Assembly (NCBI RefSeq): GCF_002208135.1
Contig: NZ_CP021646.1
Location: 2,978,001-3,042,000 of the forward strand
Length of the DNA: 64,000 bases
From: Pseudoalteromonas piscicida
GTDB lineage: Bacteria; Pseudomonadota; Gammaproteobacteria; Enterobacterales; Alteromonadaceae
Direction: 5' to 3'
The number at the start of each line of letters is the position of its first letter. The stretch's first letter is position 1. Below the pieces are notes generated by a model, which saw only the letters and a list, made by a program, of their open reading frames with translations, was not told the DNA's origin and ran no database searches. The position numbers were made by a program, and so were the translations under genes. This document shows, one piece after another, positions 16,184-33,267 of this stretch.

Positions 16184-16206
16184 GTCGAGATAAATCTCGA
16201 CCTACA
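16184..16206. repeat. Single REP-like palindrome
   Basis: GTCGAGATAAATCTCGAC followed by CTAC. It has the same design (GTCG arm, CGACCTAC end) as palindromes at 51210-51298 and is related to the array at 21797. Confidence 0.5.
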
Positions 16207-16216
16207 GATAATTCAA

Positions 16217-16908
16217 GGCATAAAAAAACCCTTGCTAAAAAGCAAGGGTTATAAAAAGTGGTACTAGTGGGCGGACTCTTAACCTGTATTAGCGCAACCT
16301 GCGTGGCGTCCAAGTCCGATACCGTAATTTTAAAGCATAGATTTGAGGCATAAAAAAACCCTTGCTAAAAAGCAAGGGTTATAAAAAGTGGTACTAGTGG
16401 GCGGACTCTTAACCTGTATTAGCGCCACCTGCGTGGCGTCCAAGTCCAATACCGTAACTTTAAAGCATAGATTTGAGGCATAAAAAAACCCTTGCTAAAA
16501 AGCAAGGGTTATAAAAAGTGGTACTAGTGGGCGGACTCTTAACCTGTATTAGCGCCACCTGCGTGGCGTCCAAGTCCGATACCGTAATTTTAAAGCATAG
16601 ATTTGAGGCATAAAAAAACCCTTGCTAAAAAGCAAGGGTTATAAAAAGTGGTACTAGTGGGCGGACTCTTAACCTGTATTAGCGCCACCTGCGTGGCGTC
16701 CAAGTCCGATACCGTAATTTTAAAGCATAGATTTGAGGCATAAAAAAACCCTTGCTAAAAAGCAAGGGTTATAAAAAGTGGTACTAGTGGGCGGACTCTT
16801 AACCTGTATTAGCGCCACCTGCGTGGCGTCCAAGTCCAATACCGTAACTTTAAAGCATAGATTTAAGGCATAAAAAAACCCTTGCTAAAAAGCAAGGGTT
16901 ATAAAAAG
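16217..16908 (-). repeat. Tandem 130-bp repeats carrying tRNA-Leu 3' ends and terminators (RtT-like)
   Basis: Five complete 130-bp units begin at 16217, 16347, 16477, 16607 and 16737; a sixth partial unit at 16867 runs into the true tRNA-Leu. Read on the minus strand, each unit holds the last 19 nt of the tRNA with one change (CTAGTACCA for CTGGTACCA), a spacer, a terminator hairpin (AACCCTTGCT/AGCAAGGGTT with T-run) and a segment with a CGCCAC-GCAG-GTGGCG hairpin. Units differ at only a few bases: unit 1 has GCGCAACC, and units 2 and 5 share TCCAAT and TAACTT. The layout matches the rtT repeats behind E. coli tyrT. Confidence 0.85.
16870..16900 (-). terminator. Terminator directly downstream of tRNA-Leu
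   Basis: The perfect 10-bp stem AACCCTTGCT/AGCAAGGGTT, read on the minus strand, is followed by a seven-T run. It starts nine bases after the tRNA 3' end. Five further copies occur at 130-bp intervals in the array. Confidence 0.85.
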
Positions 16909-16993
16909 TGGTACCAGTGGGCGGACTTGAACCGCCACGCCCGAAGGCAACGGATTTTGAATCCGTCATGTCTACCAATTCCATCACACTGGC
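16909..16993 (-). tRNA. tRNA-Leu(CAA)
   Basis: The complement folds as an 85-nt class II tRNA. The acceptor stem pairs GCCAGTG with CACTGGT and the encoded CCA is at 16909-16911. The anticodon stem ACGGA/TCCGT encloses loop TTCAAAA, giving anticodon CAA. The long variable arm is TGCCTTCGGGCG, and the T-arm contains GGTTCAAGTCC. It decodes UUG. The promoter is probably about 90 bp upstream, and the repeat array lies downstream. Confidence 0.96.
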
Positions 16994-17087: not shown

Positions 17088-17115
17088 ATTATACAAAGGC
17101 GATTAAGAACGGCAA
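17088..17115 (-). promoter_or_regulatory. Probable sigma-70 promoter for tRNA-Leu
   Basis: On the minus strand TTGCCG (17115-17110), a 16-bp spacer and a perfect TATAAT (17093-17088). Transcription would start near 17081, leaving a leader of about 88 nt before the tRNA. The rest of the 16994-17310 gap shows nothing else I can name. Confidence 0.5.
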
Positions 17116-21796: not shown

Positions 21797-22430
21797 GTCG
21801 CGACACTTAAATATGCATAAGTCGCGACATAAAGTCGCTGCTACGAAAGGTTGCTCCAAACCGTAGCAGCGGGTTTATCCCGCGACATAAAGTCGCAGCA
21901 ACACAAGGTTAATCCAAACCGTAGCAGCGGGTTTACCCCGCGACATAAAGTCGCAGCAACACAAGGTTAATCCAAACCGTAGCAGCGGGTTTATCCTGCG
22001 ACATAAAGTCGCAGCAACACAAGGTTAATCCAAACCGTAGCAGCGGGTTTATCCCGCGACATAAAGTCGCAGCAACACAAGGTTAATCCAAACCGTAGCA
22101 GCGGGTTTACCCCGCGACATAAAGTCGCAGCAACACAAGGTTAATCCAAACCGTAGCAGCGGGTTTATCCCGCGACATAAAGTCGCAGCAACACAAGGTT
22201 AATCCAAACCGTAGCAGCGGGTTTACCCCGCGACATAAAGTCGCAGCTCACAAGGTTAATCCAAACCGTAGCAGCGGGTTTACCCCGCGACATAAAGTCG
22301 CAGCAACACAAGGTTAATCCAAACCGTAGCAGCGGGTTTACCCCGCGACATAAAGTCGCAGCTCACAAGGTTAATCCAAACCGTAGCAGCGGGTTTACCC
22401 CGCGACTATATCCCGCGACAACTTAAGATC
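21797..22430. repeat. 58-bp tandem array of REP-like palindromes
   Basis: Ten head-to-tail units start at 21861, 21919, 21977, 22035, 22093, 22151, 22209, 22266, 22324 and 22381. The period is 58 bp (57 where GCAGCAACAC is shortened to GCAGCTCAC); the last unit is truncated and a diverged partial unit precedes the first. Each unit has two hairpins: GCGGG-TTTAT/C-CCCGC and GCGAC-ATAAA-GTCGC. Units are nearly identical, differing mainly at TTTATCC/TTTACCC. There are no unique spacers and no ORF. Confidence 0.9.
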
Positions 22431-32679: not shown

Positions 32680-32752
32680 TGCAATCTACTTTAGTAGACT
32701 GGTGTACATCCTTTATACACTAGCCATGTTTCAAATCAAAGCAAACTGCTCT

Positions 32753-32818
32753 GTTGTACTTGCTTACGGCTTGGTTCCTAGTTTTGTTGTACTTGCTTAC
32801 GGCTTGGTTCCTAGTTTT
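32753..32818. repeat. 33-bp perfect direct tandem duplication
   Basis: GTTGTACTTGCTTACGGCTT plus 13 further bases occurs twice without a gap, at 32753-32785 and 32786-32818. It covers the stop codon of the DUF2947 gene (32797), so the last codons and the stop are duplicated; only the upstream copy is read. Confidence 0.9.
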
Positions 32819-33267
32819 GCTTGCCCCTCAGCCATAAATTGTACTACCGAACTGCGTTTTTTTCCTATTAAGAAACTGCCGTCAGTCAAAAACATAAAGT
32901 TCTGCCAACATCGCTTAAACACGTCAAAACGGGTCTCGATCACATCATCTCGAGAGAGACAAAAATACACGGTGGTATTAGCTTGCCAATCAAGAAATTG
33001 CTCGATAGTCTCAGGAAACGCTTCTCCTGCTTCCCACGGCTGCTCCCAATTGAGGGTTTCTTGCCATGAGTCCGCTTTACCAACCCAGTCTGTTTTATCA
33101 AAGAAATCAGGGTGATCTTTTTCGTTGCTTACCATAGTGCTCCAAAGCACCGCAGCGCGCGCCGCTGACATTGGTTTTATCAATGCCAGGTCGGATTCTT
33201 CGATTGGAAGATCTTTATGTTTGAAAACCCAAGCTTTCTTATAATCGTCCAGCGCAATATAATTCAT
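32797..33267 (-). CDS. DUF2947 family protein
   Basis: 156-aa cytoplasmic protein matching the DUF2947 family found in Vibrio and Alteromonadales (start like MNYIALDDYKKAWVF, core PMSAARAAVLW, and FDVFKRCWQNFMFLTDG). Rich in Trp and acidic residues. Function unknown. Its final codons lie in a 33-bp tandem duplication. Divergent from the DUF1653 gene. Confidence 0.75.
   Translation of the reverse strand: MNYIALDDYKKAWVFKHKDLPIEESDLALIKPMSAARAAVLWSTMVSNEKDHPDFFDKTDWVGKADSWQETLNWEQPWEAGEAFPETIEQFLDWQANTTVYFCLSRDDVIETRFDVFKRCWQNFMFLTDGSFLIGKKRSSVVQFMAEGQAKLGTKP

Follow-up and report, generated by a model that had tools for sequence, protein, structure and literature searches.

A tandem array of tRNA 3′-end repeats behind tRNA-Leu(CAA) in Pseudoalteromonas piscicida and its likeness to the tRNA-linked repeats of Escherichia coli

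Repeats that carry the end of an upstream RNA gene have been described in several forms. The tRNA-linked repeats (TLRs) were first described in 1978; E. coli K-12 has 22 of them, spread over ten loci that include tyrT (Rudd 1999 as cited in PMC8144298). Each ends in 18 to 19 bp identical to the upstream tRNA or rRNA gene, and their function was given as unknown as of 2021 (PMC8144298). At tyrT the repeats, named rtT or rttR (Rfam RF00391), form three 178-bp units, each with a 5′ inverted copy and a 19-nt tail, and the rttR annotation ends exactly at the CCA of the tail copy. The fold of the tyrT repeat has been treated as partly supported by covariation (PMC8250186), and a 175-bp variable-number tandem repeat occurs at the rtT RNA in Salmonella enterica (PMC2658671). 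RtT matches have also been placed upstream, not downstream, of tRNA genes (Asn, Lys, expressed, Actinobacillus; PMC4986893). Further rtT-like sequences lie inside BIMEs upstream of protein genes in Enterobacteria, which shows that the kind is not confined to tRNA ends (PMC2965389). Two sets of RNAs are also pertinent. RrA, RrB, and RrF come from three E. coli rRNA operons, in each of which they occupy the space between two terminators, and are made by read-through; they bind Hfq and CsrA, and their repeated 3′ end has been proposed as an RNase E signal (PMC8144298). The E. coli sponge RNA 3′ETS-leuZ derives from the 3′ side of a tRNA-Leu transcript (PMC8144298). Our literature search returned no paper on arrays of this type in Pseudoalteromonas or on an inverted arm that follows its tRNA.

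We analyzed a 64,000-nt stretch of the P. piscicida genome (the window), the sole tRNA gene of which is tRNA-Leu(CAA) with its 3′ CCA encoded (16909–16993, minus strand; one call each by ARAGORN and by Rfam RF00005, 54.8 bits). Upstream of the gene is a promoter-like site, TTGCCG-16-TATAAT (17088–17115, minus strand), which is a consensus match only (10/12) in a region where two such sites were found and 2.7 are expected by chance. On the 3′ side, Tandem Repeats Finder returned a tandem repeat at 16216–16927 with a period of 130, 5.5 copies, and 98% matches. It comprises five complete 130-nt units on the minus strand that span 16259–16908 (unit 1, 16779–16908; unit 2, 16649–16778; unit 3, 16519–16648; unit 4, 16389–16518; unit 5, 16259–16388) and a partial sixth of 43 nt (16216–16258, minus strand) that holds only a trailer and the last terminator. 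The initial annotation had reported five 130-bp units after this tRNA, each with a terminator and with the terminal 19 nt of the tRNA bearing one substitution; all of this was borne out, with the partial sixth unit in addition.

Each unit is ordered as trailer, terminator, spacer, inverted tRNA copy, hairpin, and tail copy. The 5′ part consists of the trailer CTTTTTATA and a hairpin resembling an intrinsic terminator, with a 10-bp stem and a T-tract. A scan found this hairpin six times on the minus strand at the 130-bp period, first at 16877–16900 and then at 16747–16770, 16617–16640, 16487–16510, 16357–16380, and 16227–16250, as compared with 1.5 expected. TATGCC and an A+T-rich spacer follow, then the inverted piece (CGGACTTGGACGCCACGC in unit 2), and the 3′ part is made of a short hairpin and the tail AGTCCGCCCACTAGTACCA. 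This tail is the last 19 nt of the tRNA with a single change from G to A (18/19), identical in all five units; in unit 2 it lies at 16649–16667 on the minus strand. The tail sequence AGTCCGCCCACTRGTACCA occurs six times in the window, in the tRNA and the five units, at 130-bp spacing; the count does not change when up to three mismatches are permitted and is zero in 100 shuffles. The direct tail had been seen in the initial annotation, and the inverted copy had not. The latter is the reverse complement of the tRNA variable arm and T-arm with small changes. In unit 2 (16691–16708, minus strand) its score of 26 was equaled by none of 1000 shuffles, and the other units have it at the same place. 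Two main types can be told apart among the units (1 and 4 versus 2, 3, and 5), with single differences. Since the unit types differ, the assembly consists of two contigs, and near relatives carry like arrays, it is unlikely that the array is an assembly artifact.

The array shares with TLRs its position directly behind a tRNA gene and a tail that repeats the 3′ end of that gene; TLRs stand one to five per E. coli locus. All unit matches in the P. piscicida genome lie at this locus, among the 31 of 31 candidates scored in one search and the 150 of 951 scored in a second; the refuting condition of the initial annotation, units with no tRNA association, thus found nothing in its favor among those matches. 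By the defining feature, the array would therefore be classed as a TLR, one base short of identity in all five units. This class was already named, a point that the initial annotation did not make. Its comparison with rtT was sound and extends further than it had stated, as both kinds of unit combine an inverted and a direct copy of the tRNA 3′ end. The inverted copies of the E. coli rtT unit and of the tyrT-tyrV spacer each outscored all of 1000 shuffles, although by a small margin (29 versus best shuffles of 28 and 27), and an inverted copy is also implied by the Rfam RtT model, in which the inverted arm and the tail form the closing stem.

There are differences too. The window units are short, carry one terminator-like hairpin per full unit, and have a middle that no RtT model matches and core hairpins unlike those of rtT. 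In the same scan, the E. coli rtT units showed no terminator-like site on the tRNA strand, so a terminator in each unit is not general. When the window was searched with the RtT covariance model, as the initial annotation had proposed, there was no match at the gathering threshold (45 bits) nor at E values up to 10, whereas E. coli tyrT gave four matches of 133 to 138 bits; RtT membership was rejected on this basis. Conversely, R1, a model of the 3′ part of our unit, matched neither E. coli tyrT nor any of the 80 RtT loci when E values as high as 1 were allowed. R1 is a model of sequence only, since RNAalifold gave no pairs on the MAFFT alignment A1 from which it derives. The two failed searches are what one would expect if the Pseudoalteromonas unit were unrelated to TLR and RtT elements and had simply arisen in the same way. 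The plan common to both (inverted copy, hairpin, and 19-nt tail directly behind a tRNA) argues against this, as do related units behind tRNA-Leu(UAA) in another family (see below), and we consider separate origin unlikely, yet still a serious contender. We thus describe the array as an apparent RtT look-alike and not an RtT member. The other RNAs introduced above are further parallels. RrA, RrB, and RrF likewise repeat the 3′ end of the upstream gene and lie between terminators, but they are linked to 5S rRNA, and their Hfq and CsrA binding has been shown for the E. coli RNAs. For 3′ETS-leuZ the likeness is an RNA 3′ of a tRNA-Leu transcript; it is, however, a single trailer with known targets, while the window array is a repeat.

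Like arrays, with 0 to 8 copies, were found when Pseudoalteromonas loci were compared as the initial annotation had suggested. At E 0.01 the unit query matched 80 of 108 genomes of the genus, its own included, where at most eight candidates were scored per genome and many of the matches listed span only trailer and terminator. Among 105 fetched loci with an intact tRNA-Leu(CAA) gene, 37 have tailed units directly behind it, in one to eight copies (window included). This number counts L121, a plain duplication with no inverted copy, and was reduced from 38 by removal of the spurious L096. The other 68 loci have no adjoining tailed unit, which makes the array dispensable; in four of them (L055, L068, L140, and L142) the contig stops less than 65 nt or at most 65 nt past the tRNA. 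Units at a greater distance from the tRNA were found in genomes G058, G052, and G021, and those of G028 lie at the end of another contig. The maximum of eight copies was reached at L061 and at L074, where the eighth is degenerate. Copies that lack the CCA tail were detected at L105, L109, L111, L129, and L131 by searching 100 loci with a unit model that was built from units of many of those same loci. At L105, L109, L111, and L114, about 100 to 150 nt behind the tRNA, the unit loses CCA and enters a shared sequence starting with GGTGAGAGT, which is another repeat family joined at the same tail point in all four.

Unit length also varies. The units of L058 and L062 (189–231 nt) are usual units with an extra spacer that carries a palindromic TAGGTCGAGATTTATCTCGAC repeat, which is also present just past the array of the window; units of L048 and L039 are longer for other reasons. 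A palindrome, GTCGAGATTTATCTCGAC, lies at 16184–16204 just past the window array and in unit spacers of L058, L061, and L062, and it seems that an interspersed repeat has entered the units of some relatives. At two loci, L121 (G103) and L203 (G944), about 45 nt from the 3′ half of the tRNA, together with the terminator, are simply duplicated in tandem with no inverted copy; arrays perhaps start in this manner.

Such uneven occurrence would be expected of a neutral by-product, in which the tRNA 3′ end was by chance duplicated as a palindrome, the product was amplified and homogenized by slippage and unequal crossing-over, and the RNA has no role. The restriction of adjoining tailed units to 37 of 105 loci, the range of 0 to 8 copies, the degenerate copies without CCA, and the plain duplications without an inverted copy all fit this explanation. 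For the comparison of units, we used 100 units of 39 loci after four of 104 rows were dropped (L121.1, a plain duplication; L096.1, spurious; L144.1, cut by a contig end; L074.8, degenerate). A terminator-like hairpin with a T-tract is kept in 97 of the 100, although the stem sequences differ widely. That the hairpin is kept despite differing stems fits selection on an RNA, as may be judged from these sequences, and counts against a neutral by-product, which we regard as doubtful and a shade less probable than separate origin from TLRs. Among the 90 units of 110 to 150 nt, identity is 0.90 within a locus versus 0.75 between loci.

tRNA-Leu(CAA) has several alleles within the genus, and the tail and the inverted arm of a unit mostly carry the bases of the tRNA of their own locus, which likewise weighs against the neutral explanation. 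The tail has the T-stem base of its own tRNA in 95 of 100 units (39 loci), 93 of the 100 being of the commonest T-stem allele, and its acceptor bases in 95 and 98. The inverted arm complements the T-loop base of its tRNA in 93 of the 95 units that are readable there and the T-stem base in 89 of 95, and the right arm of the hairpin conforms in 83 of 87. For instance, the C-G T-stem allele, which is one of the informative minority alleles, is matched in both tail and inverted arm by all seven of its units and in the right arm by all five that are readable. All 11 units that belong to the T-loop G allele, another of these, conform as well. The tRNA of G028 has an A-T pair in the T-stem, a third state, which is shown by all four of its inverted arms and by three of its four tails. 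Over the full 19-nt tail, 41 of the 100 units are identical to their own tRNA, 22 differ from it by one base, 19 by two, 7 by three, and 11 by four to five. With kinship ignored, reassigning the tRNAs at random among the 39 loci gave a mean tail mismatch of 2.12 (1.66 at the lowest in 2000 shuffles) in place of 1.27. Related species share an allele state on a tree made from 400 nt of neighboring DNA, and the number of independent following changes is probably small. Parts of the unit that do not derive from the tRNA (GAGC, and a AGTTAAGAG/AGTAAAAG stretch before the tail) recur among the allele lineages, which suggests that the units share a single ancestor and did not arise afresh at each locus. 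Likeness within loci, combined with the following of alleles, amounts to concerted evolution. One base that differs from the tRNA persists in all five window units, so conversion is incomplete.

To look outside the genus, we ran R1 on a sample of 394 genomes of the order at E 1e-4 under tightened filters, and it matched only the P. piscicida genome itself, G028, and G397. The last is the sole match beyond Pseudoalteromonas and has three units that lie behind, and match, the tRNA-Leu(UAA) of a Gly-Cys-Leu cluster; the gene order of this cluster is that of the 3′ETS-leuZ locus. Of the 20 loci returned from the family of G397, five have tails repeated behind tRNA-Leu(UAA). An inverted copy was seen at four of these five by alignment, for which no shuffles were made, and the fifth is the plain duplication L203. 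Since related units lie behind tRNA-Leu(UAA) in another family, the unit type is not tied to one tRNA. At L187, tRNA-Gly also has a repeated tail, apparently in a broken tRNA copy. In 369 genomes of the class, R1 yielded, besides its own genome, three weak matches (E 4e-4 to 8e-4) that we dismissed as chance, there being no tRNA in the stretch around them.

The same class was surveyed with the Rfam RtT model, which matched 65 of the 369 genomes at E 0.001, 23 of them above the cut-off; among 14 control genomes it matched E. coli only. We studied 80 RtT places: the 20 returned, an additional one from each of the 45 remaining genomes, and another 15. At 68 of the 80 there is a same-strand tRNA no more than 450 nt upstream; the tail count excludes the other 12, several of which lie at contig ends. 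The RtT match ends in the last 19 nt of its own tRNA with at most three changes at 60 of the 68 places, and with no change at 43, as judged with a model that itself holds a Tyr-type tail and favors AATCC and CCA. The remaining eight do not repeat the tail of the upstream tRNA. Only one of 21 other tRNAs in the same stretches has such a repeat. Random assignment of tRNAs to the units gave a mean mismatch of 5.75 (4.84 at the lowest in 2000 shuffles) in place of 1.56, and the own tail beats all other tails in 56 of the 68 places. The tRNAs of the 60 are of ten kinds: Gln (two), Ser (four), Tyr, Glu, and Arg (two).

The inverted arms of these 60 units follow their tRNAs as well. Their score falls from 20.9 to 15.7 on shuffling (500 shuffles, highest 16.8), and in 33 of the 60 the own tRNA is at least as good as all others. 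With Leu-CAA and Leu-UAA included, the survey shows that the E. coli cases fit a pattern present behind twelve kinds of tRNA in the gammaproteobacterial sample. The inverted-plus-direct plan recurs behind many tRNAs of the class, which a neutral by-product would not lead one to expect. The initial annotation had left the choice between convergent amplification and a general mechanism open; the 22 E. coli repeats and the RtT places behind ten tRNA kinds lean to a general kind.

Pairing of the two copies was examined on the alignments as well. In the window unit, pairing of the inverted copy with the tail is possible, and 86.5% of the alignment cells are paired over the two stems, as opposed to 33 to 49% in the slid control. 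Covariation in the hairpin, however, was not above column shuffles: 415 of 500 reached the count of doubly changed pairs and 171 of 500 reached 86.5% paired. RNAalifold gave no structure on the unit alignment. Leu-type inverted arms gain next to nothing from their own tail, with −14.4 kcal/mol as against −14.0 for other-allele tails, and the own tail is best in 9 of 100 units. These three results weigh against a reading in terms of RNA structure. For the RtT units, the 5′ arm pairs with the own tail at −18.7 kcal/mol on average versus −13.4 with other tails, the own tail being best in 19 of 60.

With all of this weighed, we find it somewhat probable that the array consists of tandem, terminator-bounded RNA modules of the TLR kind that are made by read-through, have their tRNA-like tail cut, and keep their copy number and tail through recombination. 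Under this model, which we derive from the arrangement of the locus, transcription of tRNA-Leu(CAA) would, in a minority of cases, run past the first terminator and on into the unit behind it. The unit RNA would fold into a hairpin with the tRNA tail as its 3′ strand; the tail, CCA, and U-rich trailer would be cut like a tRNA 3′ end to yield short structured RNAs, and the terminator of the unit would stop the remaining transcript. We infer low-level read-through, tail cutting, and termination within units for this organism; the annotated end of rttR and the read-through RNAs RrA, RrB, and RrF are parallels in favor. The tRNA tail and the DNA that follows it match the unit tail and the DNA that follows that (19 + 130 nt, or 19 + 43 nt for the last copy), and they could thus serve as a substrate for homologous recombination. 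Unequal exchange would then add, remove, and homogenize units and re-copy the tRNA tail, which would explain copy-number change, homogeneity, and tail re-copying together. Realignment of the inverted arm would take a second step, either selection that maintains pairing or template switching on a fold-back.

A more far-reaching reading, which we think rather improbable, is that TLRs are a class-wide element that rewrites both of its ends from the upstream tRNA by an active copying step, such as template switching, reverse transcription, or folded single-strand recombination. The Pseudoalteromonas arrays would then be a fast-evolving branch of such an element, with both ends following the tRNA allele. 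As the genus varies from no unit to eight behind this tRNA gene, which has several alleles, it offers a natural experiment on how the link between repeat and tRNA is maintained and whether the repeat matters.

Folded single-strand recombination sites are known from integron attC and folded phage attP. By comparison, a unit could be a tiny non-autonomous cassette that, as a folded single strand, mimics the tRNA 3′ end and is joined to it by a tyrosine recombinase. At L181, the inverted and direct copies fold to a duplex equal to the tRNA end (15 bp and then CCA), and the units are stacked immediately behind the tRNA. Stretches containing open reading frames separate the tRNA from the unit at L054 and one unit from another at L144, and the gene itself is an integration site in the genus (G058 and G033), the G033 element having a Phage_integrase domain. 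Yet 130-nt units leave no room for a protein, the insertions in tRNA-Leu(CAA) share a longer core that starts at the anticodon loop, and the L144 insert apparently, by eye, contains transposase remnants. Moreover, in the 20 of 30 phage records listed and in all 12 plasmid records, the match is to the tRNA part of the query only, on which ground a phage or plasmid origin was rejected. We therefore judge site-specific accretion to be very improbable. An integron-like cassette reading was set aside as well, the DNA between copies at L054 and L144 not being decisive.

About 1.6 to 1.8 kb separates the tRNA from the unit at L054 (600–2520 of the minus strand), and a stretch of like length separates units at L144 (400–2200 of the minus strand). 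At L089 (G058) and L097 (G033), tRNA-Leu(CAA) carries insertions with a common core from the anticodon loop; in G058 the repeat array is left beyond the insert, and genes for a Phage_integrase protein and a C-5 cytosine DNA methylase lie within the insert of G033. Such tRNA-targeting integrative elements were rejected as a source of the units, as they use the longer core and leave the array aside. Elsewhere in the window, Tandem Repeats Finder returned a second array at 21823–22406 (period 58, about ten copies), which lies behind a cytosol aminopeptidase gene (Peptidase_M17) and whose copies hold the palindrome GCGGGTTTAYCCCGC. A perfect 33-bp tandem repeat of 2.1 copies is present at 32752–32819.
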